DNA from: Scytonema sp. UIC 10036
GTDB taxonomy: Bacteria > Cyanobacteriota > Cyanobacteriia > Cyanobacteriales > Nostocaceae
Direction: 5' to 3'
DNA length: 64,000 nt
Assembly (NCBI RefSeq): GCF_009725235.1
Contig: NZ_WJFC01000027.1
Span: 30,656-94,655 of the forward strand
Part shown: positions 1,491 through 63,921 of the stretch, piece by piece
How the letters are laid out: the number at the start of each line of letters is the position of its first letter
Numbering within the stretch: position 1 is the stretch's first letter
Made by a program: the position numbers and the translations under genes
The notes under the pieces: generated by a model
The model's database searches: none
Seen by the model: only the letters and a program-made list of their open reading frames with translations
What the model was told of the DNA's origin: nothing

Positions 1491-4400
1491 ATGCCATTAA
1501 GATTTTCACAAGCGCAGCTTGGTAAACAGCTAACTCTTGTTTTGGGTGAGGAGTTAGAAGATAGAGAAGTGCAAAGCTGCTTGGCAGCGATGGAAATTGT
1601 GGAACCGCCGATAGCAAAACCTTTCTGGCAAGCAACAGCAGCAAAGGCGGGAATTTACTTAATCTTAGCAGGTCAAGTTAGATTGCTGGATATTGGGGAG
1701 AACTTAATTACTACCCTCTCCCCTGGAGAATCATTTGGAGAATTAACTTTGTTTCCCGAAGCAGGTTTGCAAGCTTACTGTGCCAGATCTTCTGTGAACT
1801 TAAAGCTTAGCTATCTCAAACAAGAGACATTACAACCTTTAATAGGCAAATATCCCAGTGTCCGCGATCGCCTCTACCATAAGGCAGAACTCTGGGATCT
1901 ACTTTTGTTGTGTTGTCAAAATTCTCAATTTCCGCAGCACACATCACAAGTACAAGGGTTCCTCAAAGCTTTATCCCTATTTGAGCGGCATAATTTCAAC
2001 TCTTTAGAGGCAATACCTGTACTGGAAGGTTGTAAGCTATGGCTATTGTACCGAGGTAAATTGCTGCAATCTGATGGTAGTTCCTTGACACCGGGGAAAA
2101 TCTATACAAAGTTTCAACAGGAAAACTTGCAAGTACAGCAACCAACAACTGTATATATACTCCAAGATGTCCATTGGCAAACTGCACTGCAATATTGCCC
2201 AGAATTAGCGGAGTTTATCACTGTCGATCGGGGTTTAGTATCGAGCCCAGGGCCAAAACTACGTCGCAAACGTAACAGGATAGAACGTTTGGACTCATCC
2301 CAAAAAATTATTCCCTTTCCAGGACAAGAACAACCATCACAACCAAAATCAAAGAAAACACTTCCTTATTTTCCCAGTCCAAAGGTGCAAGTAGGGCATT
2401 GGTGGGGACGTTTTACCCATCAATATCCCTTTTATGCTCAACATAGTGCCTCTGATTGCGGTGCTGCTTGTTTGGTGATGATTGGTCGCTATTGGGGTAA
2501 GCACTTTAGTGTCAATCGTCTGCGGGATATGACTAACGTTGGTCGTAGTGGCGCATCTTTAGGAGCGATCGCCACGGCTGCTGAAAGCTTGGGTTTCGCC
2601 ACCCGTCCGGTGAAAGCCACCCTGGATAAATTTGCCGAACAATCTTTACCTGCGATCGCTCACTGGGAAGGGAATCACTTTATCGTCGTCTATGAAATTA
2701 CCAAAAAGCAAGTGATTGTGGGCGATCCTGCCCTCGGTCTACGTAAGTTTACCCGCAAGGAATTTACAGCAGGTTGGACTGGCTATGCATTACTTCTACA
2801 ACCCACATCCCTACTTAAAGAAGCCCAGAATCAGGATGTCGGCTTGTGGAAGTTTTTTGAGTTAGTCAAACCTCACTATCGAGTCCTGATAGAAGTCTTT
2901 ATCGCTTCGGTGTTAATTCAGGTATTTGGATTAGTAACCCCAGTATTTACCCAGTTATTACTCGACCGAGTACTCGTCCAACGCAGCGTTGCTACCCTGA
3001 ACGCCGTTGGTTTGGGGATGATAGTTTTTGGGTTGTTCAGCATTATCATGAACGGAGTGCGGACATATTTGCTTAGCCACACTGCCAACCGTATCAGCAT
3101 CTCCCTATTGGTAGGTTTTATCAAACATACCTTCCGCTTGCCCCTTTCCTATTTTGAATCCCGTTATGTTGGGGATATCATCTCCCGCATCCAGGAAAAC
3201 CAAAAAATTCAAAACTTCTTGACTGGTCAAACCCTCTCCATCCTGCTGGATATGCTGACATTAGTCATCTATCTAGCACTGATGTTTTGGTATAGCTGGA
3301 AGATGTCATTATTTGTGCTAGTTACTATACCACCATTTTTCATTCTGGCGTTGGCTAGCACAGGGATTTTGCGACGCATTTCCAGAGATATTTTTAATGC
3401 TGGAGCCAAAGAAAACAGCTATATTATTGAATCTCTTACAGGAATTCGCACTGTCCGCTCATTGGCTGTTGAACAAACTGTGCGTTGGCATTGGGAAGAA
3501 CTATTAAATAATTTGGTCAAAAAAGCCTTCAATGCTCAGGTGATTGGGATTCGCCTCTCCATGCTCAGTGGTGCAATCAATACCTTTACCAGTACAGCAT
3601 TAATGTGGTTTGGCGCATGGCAAGTCATTCAAGGAGAACTCACTATTGGTCAATTGATTGCTTTCAATATGTTGGTAGGTAATGTTTTGGGTCCTTTCCA
3701 AAGGTTTTCAGGGCTGTGGAATCAATTCCAAGAAATTCTTATTTCCACAGAACGCATTAATGATGTCCTAGACGCCGAACCAGAAGAAGACTTACACAAT
3801 AAACCCCGTAAGACTTTGGGTAGATTGCGCGGTCACATTCGCTTCGAGCGTGTCACCTTCCGATATCACCCAGAAAGTAAGACTAACGTCCTGGAAAATA
3901 TCAATTTTGAAATCCAGCCAGAGCAAATGGTGGCATTAGTGGGACGCAGTGGTTCTGGGAAAACCACCCTAAGTAAACTAATTTTGGGTTTATATCCACC
4001 GACAGATGGCAAAGTATTAATTGACAATCAAGACGTGACTGGAATTTCTTTGCGATCGCTCCGTTCTCAAATCGGTGTTGTCGATCAAGATACCTTTTTG
4101 TTTGGTAGTACAATCCGAGAAAACATTTCCATAGCACACCCAGAAGCAACTCTCAACGAAATTATTCAAGCAGCAAAATTAGCGGGAGCAGATGAATTTA
4201 TCCAGCAACTACCCCTAGGTTACGAAACCCAAATTGGTGAAGGTGGGGGAATGCTCTCTGGGGGACAACGCCAACGTTTGGCGATCGCTCGTGCTTTGTT
4301 AGGAAATCCCCGTTTATTGCTGTTTGACGAAGCCACCAGCCATCTAGACACAGAATCAGAACGGATTATTCAGAACAACATGAAAACTATTCTCAAAGGA

Positions 4401-33228: not shown

Positions 33229-33257
33229 CCCCTGAGGCAATGTCCATGCCTCAGGGG
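33229..33257 (-). terminator. Strong hairpin ending the tRNA-like RNA unit
   Basis: A perfect 11-bp stem (CCCCTGAGGCA / TGCCTCAGGGG) with a 7-nt loop. On the minus strand it is followed by ATTTTAAG, a weak T-tract, so it could be a terminator or a protective 3' hairpin for the RNA upstream. Confidence 0.65.
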
Positions 33258-33344
33258 TGGAACCAAAAGGTTTCAAACTTTCAGTTTTGTATTCACAATT
33301 TCTGCCAAGTTAATTTCCGGTTCCTGCAAATTCATTCTTTAAGT

Positions 33345-33416
33345 CGTGGTGTTTTACCTCTAAACTACCGAAGCACTATTTTGGAGCTTCGGACGAGATT
33401 TGAACCCGTGTCCCAC
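33345..33416 (-). ncRNA. Circularly permuted tRNA-like domain 2
   Basis: Read 5' to 3' on the minus strand, the 3' half of a cloverleaf comes first. An anticodon-stem strand GTGG (33416-33413) is followed by T-arm ACGGG-TTCAAAT-CTCGT (33409-33393), 3' acceptor strand CCGAAGC (33392-33386), discriminator T and an encoded CCA (33384-33382). After a 7-nt linker (33381-33375) comes the 5' half: acceptor GCTTCGG (33374-33368, 7/7 pairs), TA, D-arm with GG in the loop (33365-33351), then CCAC (33349-33346). The anticodon helix extends outward by GAC/GTC and TTAA/TTAA with single-nt bulges. No normally ordered tRNA fits. Function unknown. Confidence 0.75.
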
Positions 33417-33451
33417 TGACATTAATTTACAGGGGTTGATGCAGAATGTGA

Positions 33452-33499
33452 AGTTTCACAGTAAGCTTGGAGCAATAATCTAAAACTAAACGTGAAACT
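33452..33499 (-). ncRNA. Hairpin joining the two tRNA-like domains
   Basis: On the minus strand AGTTTCAC (33499-33492) pairs with GTGAAACT (33459-33452), eight perfect pairs around a 32-nt loop. It lies midway between the permuted tRNA-like domains and is likely part of one structured RNA. A further long-range helix, GGAACC (33324-33319) with GGTTCC (33264-33259), lies 3' of domain 2. Confidence 0.55.
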
Positions 33500-33509
33500 G
33501 ATTGCGTCG

Positions 33510-33584
33510 AGGAGTGCCTTTACCATTTGGCTATCCCTCGTTAAAAAAATCGAGGGAGTAGGACTCGAACCTACAAATACTCCT
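33510..33584 (-). ncRNA. Circularly permuted tRNA-like domain 1
   Basis: On the minus strand, anticodon-stem strand AGGAG (33584-33580), variable loop TATTT, T-arm GTAGG-TTCGAGT-CCTAC (33574-33558) and 3' acceptor strand TCCCTCG (33557-33551) come first. A 10-nt T-rich linker (33550-33541) follows, then 5' acceptor CGAGGGA (33540-33534, 7/7 pairs), TA, D-arm GCC...GGC with GG in its loop (33531-33516), A26 and CTCCT (33514-33510), which pairs perfectly with AGGAG. The stem continues past a TAT/C internal loop as GTGTC/GACGC. Every canonical tRNA element is present but the halves are swapped. No CCA is encoded. Confidence 0.78.
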
Positions 33585-33621
33585 ATAGACACTGAAACTA
33601 AAATTGTGCTCCATTTATATT

Positions 33622-34368
33622 CTATCTGATATTTGAGGGAGCAAACAAGTAACCAAAAATAGAACGGGCAACATGATTTTGTTGTGTCACTTCTAAACTA
33701 TTTGCTTGTTCTCTAGCAAAAATCACCTCCTGCATTAATCTATCTACTCTTCGTAACAGTTCGTTTTGTCTGGCTTGAGAAATTGCCCCAGAAAACTTAA
33801 CACTCCGCCACGTTCCTTCTGGAACATCTTCAGATGATTCTTTCACCTGTGCGGGATGTTCTTTCGTGGCTTCGTACAGCACTACTGGCTTAACAATTTT
33901 TTTAGTTTTCGTTGTAAATTTGGGTTCAGTAGCAAAGCATTCTTGCTGGGGGTCATAAATCCAAGATTCGCTAGTGTCCAAGACTGGTAGGGATGAAATA
34001 AATGTTTTGATGTCAACTAACTGCTTTTCTAAAAACAACAGGTAAGATACAGGAACTTCTCTAAGAATTGTAGTTCCATCAACGACTATATCTGCCTTAG
34101 CTTGAGAATTAGCCCAGTCTTGAGTTGCACACAAATTAAATAATTCCGAGCAAGCTTGCTCAAACTGACTTAGTAAATCTTCTGCTTTCAACTGCAGTGT
34201 TTGGTTTTCAGGTGGATAGACAAAACCATCTTCAGCAACTGGAGAAAAAGTGCGAGAAATGCCTTGAAACATTGCACTTTTTTGAATGAGGTGATAAACG
34301 GCTGTTTTTGCTTTTGAAGAATTAGCTTTAATAGTTTGTAGAACTGCAATCACTTGATTTAGTTTCAT
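33622..34368 (-). CDS. Conserved protein of unknown function linked to permuted tRNA-like RNAs
   Basis: 248 residues. It opens MKLNQVIAVLQTIKANSSKA and carries characteristic stretches DWANSQAKADIVVDG, VPVSYLLFLEKQLVDIKTF, ATKEHPAQV, DVPEGTWRSVKFSGAIS and a C-terminal helix LLRRVDRLMQEVIFAREQAN. From memory it belongs to a widely spread bacterial family without known function (I believe DUF7873; not checked). There is no signal peptide or membrane segment, so it is probably a cytoplasmic, mostly helical protein. A strong GGAGGA precedes the ATG. Its stop lies 38 bases before the first tRNA-like domain, so protein and RNA probably share a transcript. I infer it binds or processes that RNA. Confidence 0.75.
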   Translation of the reverse strand: MKLNQVIAVLQTIKANSSKAKTAVYHLIQKSAMFQGISRTFSPVAEDGFVYPPENQTLQLKAEDLLSQFEQACSELFNLCATQDWANSQAKADIVVDGTTILREVPVSYLLFLEKQLVDIKTFISSLPVLDTSESWIYDPQQECFATEPKFTTKTKKIVKPVVLYEATKEHPAQVKESSEDVPEGTWRSVKFSGAISQARQNELLRRVDRLMQEVIFAREQANSLEVTQQNHVARSIFGYLFAPSNIR

Positions 34369-60639: not shown

Positions 60640-61671
60640 CTATGGCGCTTGCCAAATTTTTTGATGGTACTTTTCTATATCTGCATAAGGGTCTTCGGTT
60701 GGATGCGTGTGGTCGTGAGTGTGATGATGGTCATGATGGTGATGATGGTGGTCATGAGTGTGGGAATGACCGTGACCGCTGTTTGCTAAAGCATATAGAC
60801 GGAATTTACACATCTCACAATTCATCTGTACTTGTTCTAGTTGGGTTTCAATTTCTCTGTCTCTCAGTACGGAGAGGAGAACTGGATGCAATCCCATCTC
60901 TGGTAGACAAGTTATGGACATATCTGGATATTGCTCTTGCTGTTGGGCGGTGATATTAAAAATCTTTTTGACTAATGCCCCTGTAAATAGGAAGTATGGC
61001 AAAACAATGATGCGTTTGGGCTGATAAAGCCGTGCGCGGTGAAAACCTTCTTCTAGTCTGGGGTGGGTAATGCCAATAAAACAGGTTTCAACGGTGGAGT
61101 AACCGCTTCCTTCCCAAAGAATGCGAGCTAGTTTATATACGTCTCCATTGGCGTCGGGATCGCTCGAACCACGTCCAACAAATAAGAGAACGGTATCGGA
61201 ACGAGATATTTGTTGGGGGTTATGTTCGGGTTTGTCAAGTTCTGCTAGACGCGATCGCCACAGTTCTACAATTGCAGGAGTAATGCCAAAATGACGCCCG
61301 TAGTGAAACTTTAACTGTGGATGTCGGGACTTGGCACGATCTAGCTCATTAGTTACATCAAATTTATTGTGTCGTGCAGCAAATAACAATATGGGCAGTA
61401 CTGTGAGTTCAGTGTAACCTTGTGCTACACATTGGTCTATACCTTCTTGAATGGAAGGAACGGTTAGCTCTAAAAAGCAAGGTAAAACTGGACGCGATCG
61501 ATCTAAAGCTTGGTAAAGAGTTGCAAAGTCTAATAAAGCTTGTCTTCCTTCTTCATCCCTAGTACCATGTCCAACCATTAGCAAAGGGCGTTGTATTGGC
61601 AGGGGTGATAGTTTTAGACTTTGAGCAGAAGATTCTGAATAAGAGTGATTTGAAGTGTTGGTAGTCAGCAT
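60640..61671 (-). CDS. cbiX: CbiX-type sirohydrochlorin cobaltochelatase with His-rich tail
   Basis: 343 residues. Two CbiX/CbiK-type halves: the first with [20 protein letters not shown] and [12 protein letters not shown] (metal His residues), the second with [20 protein letters not shown] and [13 protein letters not shown]. Inserts metal, here probably cobalt, into sirohydrochlorin. The C-terminus has about 15 His between 300 and 325 ([12 protein letters not shown]), a metal store. NCEMCKF may bind a metal or Fe-S cluster. A cobalamin riboswitch upstream supports a role in B12 rather than siroheme. Confidence 0.92.
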
Positions 61672-61689: not shown

Positions 61690-61893
61690 TCCCGTGCTAC
61701 GCAGGAAATAGAGTGAGCAGGTAATAAATAGGCGTTCTGGCTAACACAATTTTGGATTTTGGATTTTGGATTTTAGATTATTCCCAATCCAAAATCCAAA
61801 ATCTAAAATCTAAAATCCGTTTACAGCTGCGGCACAGCCCCGGACTTGCACCGGAGTTTCCCTATTTTGTTACAGTTCACGTTTGCTTTGATA
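61690..61893 (-). promoter_or_regulatory. Cobalamin riboswitch upstream of cbiX
   Basis: On the minus strand the core GGGAAACTCCGGTGCAAGTC is followed by CGGGGCTGTGCCGCAGCTGT and, nearer the gene, the B12-box-like GCCAGAACGCCTATT. These are the conserved P3-P6 and B12-box parts of the cobalamin aptamer. Between them is a long hairpin of heptamer repeats. Expected to shut off cbiX when adenosyl- or aquocobalamin is plentiful. Confidence 0.9.
61748..61818. repeat. Heptamer repeat hairpin inside the riboswitch
   Basis: Four ATTTTGG/ATTTTAG units (61750-61779) face five ATCCAAA/ATCTAAA units (61786-61818), forming a long stem. It lies in the peripheral, length-variable part of the cobalamin aptamer. 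Confidence 0.85.
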
Positions 61894-62050
61894 TCTTAGC
61901 TGATTTATGTGAAGGAGCAAAATACCGGGGGAGGGGAGAGAAAAGACAGGGAGTTGTGTGTTAAGTGCAAATACTAAAAATACGAGTAGAATTTTAACAA
62001 ATTCGCGGAATTCCCCATCCCTCTACAGGGTGGGGATGGATAGCGAACAA

Positions 62051-62462: not shown

Positions 62463-62493
62463 TCTTCGATAAAAACAAGGAGGTGGTTTGAAT

Positions 62494-63921
62494 ATGTCGT
62501 TCAAAAGTAAAGAACAAAAAGAGCTAGATAAAGAAAAAAACAAGGATACTCATATTTCAACTGTTGTGCAGCATCTTAAATTGTCTAATCTTGGTTATGC
62601 TGTAATATCTGACATTTTGTCACACGCCAACAGTTTATATAACACCTTGACTTTCAATTTGAGACAAGGATTTTTTGCCTACAAAATTCTGAATTTTTCA
62701 TCTCTAACCATTGATTTACAAACCGACTTCAAAGAAAACTACCATTATAAAATGCTGCAATCACAAGCAGCACAGTCCGTGTGTCATAAGGTAGCTGAGA
62801 ATTTTCAATCATTCAAGCAGCTTTTAGATAAACATTTTAGTGAGGGAACTAAAAAACCAAAGCTACCTGGTTATAGAGAGAAAGGAGGGATGTTTGAAGT
62901 AACGTATCCCGGTCAAACAGTAAAATTTGAAAGAAAACATGGAATAAAATTGGCGACTATTTCAACAGGGATTCAGTTTAGAAAGTTCCATAAAGAAGAT
63001 GTTATGGGAACAACTTTGAATGAAAAATTGAGATTTAGAGTTCCTGATGACGTTGACTCCTCTAAGCTTGTTGAGTTAGTAATTACATCAAAACATAGAG
63101 AGATTTATTTGCATTGGGTATGCAGAAATCAGAATGAAATTGTTGCTACATTGGATAAGTCAAGTGCTTTAGGGATTGACATAGGATTAAACAACTTTGT
63201 TACTTGTATTCCGAGCACAGGTCAAGAAGGATTTATTATAAATGGGCGACCGTTAAAGGCAGTAAATCAGTTTTATAACAAGACTGTAGCCAAGCTGAAA
63301 AAGGGTAAAGATGAGAATTTCTGGAGTGGTAGTTTAGCTAGAGCAACACAAGCCAGAAACAACCAAGTACGTGATTTTATTAAGAAGTCAGCACGCACAA
63401 TAATCAACAAATGCCTAGAATTAAAGATAGGTAAAATTGTATTTGGTTGGAACCAAGGCATTAAGGATGAAATAGATAACGGACGTGTCAATAATCAAAA
63501 TTTTGTGCAAGTACCGTTCACTGCATTACGCGATACGCTCAAGTATTTATGTCAAAGACACGGTATAGAATTTGTAGTTGTAGAAGAATCATACACTTCA
63601 AAAATGTCATTTTTTGACGGGGATGAACTCCCCGTATTCGGAAAAGAAACCGAATCCCAGAAGACACAGAAACCTTCTGGGAAAAGAACAAAGCGTGGTG
63701 AATACAAAATAGCAAGCGGAACAGTTATCAACGCTGATGCTAATGGGGCTTGTAATATCCTAAGAAAGGCAAAAATTGACACCTCAAAAATTACTTTTCG
63801 AGTGTGTCAAATTCTCAAAAGAATCAATATTTGGATAGGTAAAAAACCATCTGAAAGTAAAGGTACGGTAGCAAGCTTGTCTTGTTGCACGACTATAGGA
63901 GTCACTGAACCGACTCAGTAA
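62494..63921 (+). CDS. tnpB: TnpB-type RNA-guided nuclease (IS605 OrfB family)
   Basis: 475 residues. RuvC-type acidic residues: Asp in ALGIDIGLNNFVTC, Glu in VVVEESYTSKMSFF and Asp in VINADANGACNILRK. The N-terminus is helical with an OB-like middle (EVTYPGQTVKFERKHGIKL). The usual zinc finger with two CxxC pairs between the Glu and last Asp motifs is absent; this segment reads FFDGDELPVFGKETESQKTQ, a known TnpB subtype pattern. The ATG at 62494 has AGGAGG nine bases upstream; a TTG at 62488 is too close. No TnpA is seen in the window. Confidence 0.9.
   Translation: MSFKSKEQKELDKEKNKDTHISTVVQHLKLSNLGYAVISDILSHANSLYNTLTFNLRQGFFAYKILNFSSLTIDLQTDFKENYHYKMLQSQAAQSVCHKVAENFQSFKQLLDKHFSEGTKKPKLPGYREKGGMFEVTYPGQTVKFERKHGIKLATISTGIQFRKFHKEDVMGTTLNEKLRFRVPDDVDSSKLVELVITSKHREIYLHWVCRNQNEIVATLDKSSALGIDIGLNNFVTCIPSTGQEGFIINGRPLKAVNQFYNKTVAKLKKGKDENFWSGSLARATQARNNQVRDFIKKSARTIINKCLELKIGKIVFGWNQGIKDEIDNGRVNNQNFVQVPFTALRDTLKYLCQRHGIEFVVVEESYTSKMSFFDGDELPVFGKETESQKTQKPSGKRTKRGEYKIASGTVINADANGACNILRKAKIDTSKITFRVCQILKRINIWIGKKPSESKGTVASLSCCTTIGVTEPTQ

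Follow-up and report, generated by a model that had tools for sequence, protein, structure and literature searches.

Two tRNA-like stretches lie side by side on the minus strand of the window (the whole 64-kb stretch of DNA analysed here), each with the T-arm and the acceptor 3' strand placed before the acceptor 5' strand and the D-arm, as in a permuted tRNA gene. What does such a pair encode, and with what would its product work? Read letter by letter, the two units are laid out as follows.

33510-33584, minus strand: module 1, permuted tRNA-like unit (direct reading, strict finder, covarying stems)
33584-33580, minus strand: AGGAG of the module 1 anticodon-type stem, pairing with CTCCT at 33514-33510
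33574-33558, minus strand: T-arm of module 1, then the acceptor 3' strand TCCCTCG at 33557-33551
33550-33541, minus strand: acceptor loop of module 1, 10 nt
33540-33534, minus strand: acceptor 5' strand CGAGGGA of module 1, then TA, then the D-arm at 33531-33516
33351-33409, minus strand: module 2, permuted tRNA-like unit (direct reading, strict finder)
33409-33393, minus strand: T-arm of module 2, then the acceptor 3' strand CCGAAGC at 33392-33386
33385-33382, minus strand: encoded TCCA of module 2, then 7 nt
33374-33368, minus strand: acceptor 5' strand GCTTCGG of module 2, then TA and the D-arm at 33365-33351

A strict finder for permuted modules, run on both strands of the 64 kb, returned exactly these two and no others; a looser version added seven weak chance sites. 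An earlier note on this DNA had described a tandem, permuted pair on the minus strand, composed of two self-contained units and unlikely to have arisen by chance. The letters and our script bear out this arrangement, the coordinates are right letter by letter, each unit pairs with its own partners, and the shuffle controls reported below agree with the lack of further strict matches. The interval it gave, 33345-33584, is correct in its coordinates and too short in its extent, as outer helices and a 3' hairpin stretch the feature to about 33613-33229.

Standard searches returned little at the modules themselves. ARAGORN, to whose model permutation is foreign, reported zero tRNAs or tmRNAs in the window. 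No Rfam family reached its cut-off on the RNA when the window and ten loci from annotated records were scanned, and the only match at threshold in the window was a cobalamin riboswitch elsewhere (61710-61911, minus strand, upstream of an open reading frame at 60640-61671). Folded alone, the module 2 region was just slightly better than its shuffles (z -1.72). The window also holds, at 62488-63921, a transposase gene of the OrfB_IS605 type whose product has a Cas12f1-like TNB domain.

The predicted RNA around the modules

Both modules are heads of one conserved RNA that lies beside a DUF7873 gene. Promoter, covariation and terminator signs lead us to predict that positions 33613-33229 of the minus strand specify an independently made noncoding RNA, with the following parts and neighbours.

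33622-34368, minus strand: gene for a DUF7873 (PF25283) protein of 248 aa, the predicted partner of the RNA (Pfam 337.3 bits, cut-off 27)
33643-33648, minus strand: possible -35 element TTGTTT, weak and named by eye, 18 nt ahead of the -10 box
33619-33624, minus strand: predicted -10 box TAGAAT, overlapping the DUF7873 stop codon
33229-33613, minus strand: noncoding RNA (predicted), about 385 nt, bearing both permuted tRNA-like modules (conserved -10 box, helices that covary, an end resembling a terminator)
33607-33613, minus strand: P1 5' strand TGGAGCA, pairing with 33474-33468
33468-33474, minus strand: P1 3' strand TGCTCCA, partner of the P1 5' strand
33424-33433, minus strand: P2 5' strand CCTGTAAATT, in the helix that encloses module 2 (predicted fold and letters)
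33323-33332, minus strand: P2 3' strand AATTTGCAGG (predicted fold and letters)
33229-33257, minus strand: 3' hairpin CCCCTGAGGC..GCCTCAGGGG, then ATTTTAA, terminator-like

The DUF7873 gene ends eight nucleotides ahead of P1. The -10-like box is conserved: TANNNT occurs 4-16 nt ahead of P1 in 33 of 34 cyanobacterial loci, versus 47 of 680 control positions. The -35 candidate TTGTTT was not among the output of a generic promoter scan. At the other end of the RNA, the constrained consensus of 62 loci places a hairpin at the same 3' position. In the 5' body of some relatives (L036, L062 and L099, for example), we observed a strand of CTNAG motifs spaced about six bases apart, such as GGCTTAGACTTAGGCTTAG; it faces a similar strand ahead of the P1 3' side, and the two may pair into a helix interrupted by mismatches at regular intervals.

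The protein encoded next to the RNA matches DUF7873 alone in Pfam, with no match to TROVE. AlphaFold2 models it confidently (pLDDT 90.3, pTM 0.60), and fold searches with this model against solved folds gave no convincing match and none marking RNA-binding. The copy in the window is not basic, with 27 lysines and arginines and 29 aspartates and glutamates. A literature search for DUF7873 or PF25283, with most subscription papers and all preprints outside its coverage, found no paper.

Conservation beside DUF7873

Relatives of the locus were collected from GTDB contigs (18 loci), phage records (73 records, of which eight regions were examined), plasmid records (4 records, two examined) and IMG/VR (the best 80 of 322 confirmed), as well as from 195 genomes of the same order, of which 30 carry DUF7873. 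The 138 DUF7873 loci span cyanobacteria, Myxococcota, actinobacteria and phages. Counted over the 750 nt that follow the gene, 85 loci have two modules, 33 have one and 20 have none (near-duplicates included). These 203 modules compare with 11 matches in 690 dinucleotide-shuffled regions of the same DNA, and the upstream flanks (351,019 nt, with 181 T-arms) gave only 20 modules. The first acceptor 5' strand and the second T-arm are 110-146 nt apart in 62 loci, which had been preselected at a spacing of 150 nt or less.

Bacterial loci with two modules include those of Nostoc, Cylindrospermum, Anabaena, Myxococcales, Sorangium, Streptomyces and Nonomuraea, and phage loci with two include phages of Rhodococcus, Gordonia and Arthrobacter. 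In phages of Vibrio and Rhizobium the locus has a single module, which indicates that two heads are not essential throughout.

We then used R1, a covariance model of P1 and module 1 (the first half of the RNA), to follow the link between RNA and gene. R1 scored above 70 bits in 19 of the 195 cyanobacterial genomes of the order; all 19 carry DUF7873, and in every one the match follows that gene on the same strand, at a distance of no more than about 250 nt. Seven of the 19 supplied training rows for R1 (G001, G009, G016, G070, G109, G117 and G160), so that 12 were new to the model, some of them close kin. Among viral loci without training rows, 57 of 72 were matched at E <= 1e-6 (near-duplicates included), and 7 of 12 further bacterial loci, nine of which came from genomes new to the analysis, exceeded 50 bits. 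One genome in which DUF7873 was not found, G123, gave an R1 match at a contig end. Nine weaker matches were read individually, and two of them (L166 and L169) proved to be ordinary neighbouring tRNAs with similar acceptor stems.

R1 also recovered seven of the 20 loci without modules at E < 1e-6 (L032, L051, L056, L057, L059, L060 and L115). Some of the others gave weak matches, and the contig of L096 stops at the gene; R1 showed nothing convincing at loci such as L010, L018, L045, L047, L055, L098 and L127. In L032, a Microcoleus phage, DUF7873 and a weaker R1 match have a HEARO RNA (129.1 bits, 3941-4150) between them.

Another family of cyanobacterial RNAs came to light in L163, L164, L165, L168, L170 and L171. 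Its tRNA-like units, some permuted and others in normal tRNA order, sit within the conserved frame CGCRCCCYAAC..AGCTTACA ... AGCTTTNNNNACTTGYGCG. In L164, L168 and L171 this family adjoins an open reading frame starting MSEHRL..IVIERPR, the L164 copy of which had no Pfam or NCBIfam match.

Pairing and covariation

Strands were compared for their fit with their own partners and with partners from other loci. T-arms picked blind to the acceptor were followed by a matching 5' strand and D-arm in 183 of 214 cases, compared with 210 of 4280 when the downstream DNA was shuffled and 336 of 4228 when acceptors were swapped between loci. Across 38 non-redundant loci, P2, a helix that the finder does not use, gave a mean of -9.83 kcal/mol with its own partner versus -3.91 kcal/mol with partners swapped in from elsewhere in the set, and none of 10000 permutations was as low; the window has no anchor motif and is outside these 38. 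The anticodon-type stems behaved in the same way across 62 loci: -8.72 (own) versus -4.71 (swapped) for module 1 and -7.67 versus -4.45 for module 2, with 0 of 5000 permutations as low in either case.

In an alignment of P1 and module 1 from 21 sequences, both partners vary in 14 of 20 pairs. The five core pairs of P1 form in 97.1% of cells, and two of them change on both sides. The covariation score was 0.587, versus 0.171 for shuffled and 0.095-0.173 for slid alignments, with the part contributed by the acceptor, T and D stems being partly circular. Compensatory changes in homologous loci, whose absence the earlier note had named as evidence against itself, are thus present. The anticodon-type stems covary as well, yet they open into conserved outer helices.

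A probable tRNA-mimicking RNA and what it may do

Our preferred reading, to which we assign a probability of about 0.45, is that the locus gives rise to an RNA, about 385 nt long, that contains two permuted modules and likely forms a ribonucleoprotein with DUF7873, and that its tRNA tops serve as bait for an enzyme. DUF7873 would hold the body of the RNA, namely P1, P2 and the conserved strands between them, while the two tops (acceptor, T-arm and D-arm) would project outward like the tRNA-like domain of a bacterial Y RNA. Each module would retain the elbow and acceptor features used by tRNA enzymes, its anticodon loop being ceded to the RNA body. An enzyme reading these features could be baited by the tops and pulled to the particle, off real tRNAs. 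The bait might guard the tRNA pool of phages, in which tRNA genes are often close to the pair. Of 60 viral loci, 26 have at least one tRNA or tmRNA by ARAGORN and 14 have four or more tRNAs; the examined flank of the other 34 contained no tRNA. The two tops, the constant protein and the frequent tRNA neighbours in phages fit a ribonucleoprotein that captures tRNA-acting enzymes. GOLLD and ROOL are also large structured phage RNAs, GOLLD often lying near tRNA genes, but no such family was among the Rfam matches in the window or at the ten annotated-record loci.

The nearest known kind is the bacterial Y RNA YrlA (RF02553), which the earlier note overlooked in stating that it knew of no permuted tRNA genes described in bacteria; the Rfam model has the same module order. 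Like the RNA in the window, YrlA carries a permuted tRNA-like module on a basal stem, according to the portion of PMC8394870 that deals with it. The same portion describes one module in 90-150 nt, whereas here there are two in about 385 nt. Could the RNA therefore be a true, double-headed Y RNA of Ro60/Rsr, with DUF7873 as an accessory factor? In a relaxed Rfam search both modules matched YrlA, module 2 at 26.3 bits over model positions 1-114, flanking basal stem included, and module 1 at 22.2 bits, both below the cut-off of 69; several other DUF7873 loci scored 25-37 bits. This shortfall is not decisive, since modules of three phage loci that are linked to Ro (L147, L148 and L150) themselves reach just 33-43 bits. 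TROVE, the Ro60 domain, is present in 11 of 30 DUF7873 genomes versus 35 of 165 others, and in 6 of 40 DUF7873 virus or phage records, three of which (the same L147, L148 and L150) have permuted YrlA-type modules near the TROVE gene.

On the other side of the balance, TROVE is missing from 19 of the 30 genomes and 34 of the 40 records, some of which may be fragments, and from the 19 scanned open reading frames of the window (out of 46 of at least 100 aa, with all those of at least 399 aa among the 19). Two loci, L001 and L035, gave no YrlA match at E <= 0.1. YrlA is a partner of Ro60/Rsr, while the RNA in the window is linked to DUF7873 instead. Given that TROVE is mostly absent from the DUF7873 genomes, the records and the scanned frames of the window, we do not file the RNA as a Y RNA, and we consider a Ro60-bound identity unlikely, if still the alternative to be taken most seriously. 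It probably works like a Y RNA without being classed as one, and is likely part of a ribonucleoprotein that resembles those of Y RNAs, does not depend on Ro and engages enzymes handling tRNA. Passages of PMC7824862, PMC7765460 and PMC12282133 mention phage proteins similar to Ro60 or putative phage Y RNAs, and a passage of PMC7790460 raises an idea akin to the bait role, namely that YrlA might competitively inhibit an anticodon nuclease.

A different arrangement was seen at two Nostoc TROVE loci (L020 and L022), where tRNAs of normal order upstream of the TROVE gene carry a long Y-RNA-like insert where the anticodon arm would be. They score as tRNAs in Rfam at 45-48 bits over 122-139 nt, and L021 has a similar call.

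The acceptor loops may allow for further processing. Permuted, two-piece tmRNA (RF04321) has its tRNA-like part encoded 3' half first, as do the modules in the window. By distant analogy, RNase P and 3' trimming might cut both acceptor loops, so that the RNA would be nicked into three pieces and have two CCA ends, maybe charged. In a non-redundant set of 62 loci, the acceptor is followed by NCCA in 19 cases for module 1 and 25 for module 2, position 74 is C in 44 and 52, and position -1 is T in 33 and 43, T making up 0.31 of loop bases; module 2 of the window encodes TCCA. The encoded NCCA and the T at -1 suggest that a clipped, multi-piece form is possible. Most loci nevertheless do not encode NCCA (43 of 62 for module 1, 37 of 62 for module 2), an RNA body apparently takes the place of the anticodon loop, and ARAGORN reported no tmRNA in the window. 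Relaxed Rfam matches in the window included none to RF04321, and the one tmRNA match there was a 7.8-bit fragment of 18 positions, which gives no sign of a tag reading frame or of the tmRNA structure. As an account of the locus, such clipping seems improbable to us. We would be only slightly less doubtful of a broader picture, in which phages have spread a Ro-independent RNA machine over at least three bacterial phyla, its RNA clipped by RNase P into three pieces that have two CCA ends and are bound by DUF7873, the whole acting, beside phage tRNA genes, as a phage decoy against host attack on tRNA.

Equally improbable is a cis-acting element at the 3' end of the DUF7873 transcript, through which tRNA mimicry would regulate DUF7873 itself. 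The position directly downstream on the same strand in all 19 strong cyanobacterial matches speaks in its favour, but a -10-like box lies right ahead of the RNA. Moreover, the RNA in L059 (4603-4756, minus strand) is downstream of DUF7873 on the opposite strand, and that in L177 (2278-2428, plus strand) is upstream and divergent. These changes of orientation suggest that the RNA is more than a 3' untranslated region of DUF7873.

The proposal of the earlier note, that the units are permuted tRNA genes maturing into functional tRNAs, is not supported, and we think it very unlikely. Circularly permuted tRNA genes occur in algae and archaea, and the likeness in the order of the halves is genuine: the modules have a full T-arm, acceptor, D-arm and anticodon-type stem, some with an encoded CCA. 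The anticodon-side stems, however, appear to lead on into the conserved outer helices and not into an anticodon loop, which places the modules inside a larger structured RNA, and ARAGORN, lacking a permutation model, was negative. Finally, chance or decayed tandem tRNA genes, for which the ordinary tRNAs behind two weaker R1 matches might speak, can be dismissed in view of the finder and shuffle controls, the spacing within the preselected loci, and the own-versus-swapped tests of acceptors, P2 and anticodon-type stems.

For the preferred reading, a DUF7873-held RNA with tRNA tops as bait, the general kind is familiar, as tRNA-mimicking scaffold RNAs are known, while the architecture and the protein partner are new. 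A literature search on YrlA and Y RNA, phage noncoding RNA, and permuted or tandem tRNA-like modules, made at the level of titles and the opening lines of abstracts, with most subscription papers and all preprints outside its reach, found no description of this RNA. The pair of RNA and DUF7873 gene has been kept in groups as far apart as Nostocales, Myxococcota and Streptomyces, and also in phages of several hosts. A particle of this kind would show that permuted tRNA mimicry extends beyond Ro60 RNAs, would give DUF7873, a domain of unknown function, a molecular setting, and would open to experiment the question of why such an RNA is retained by many phages, frequently alongside their tRNA genes.
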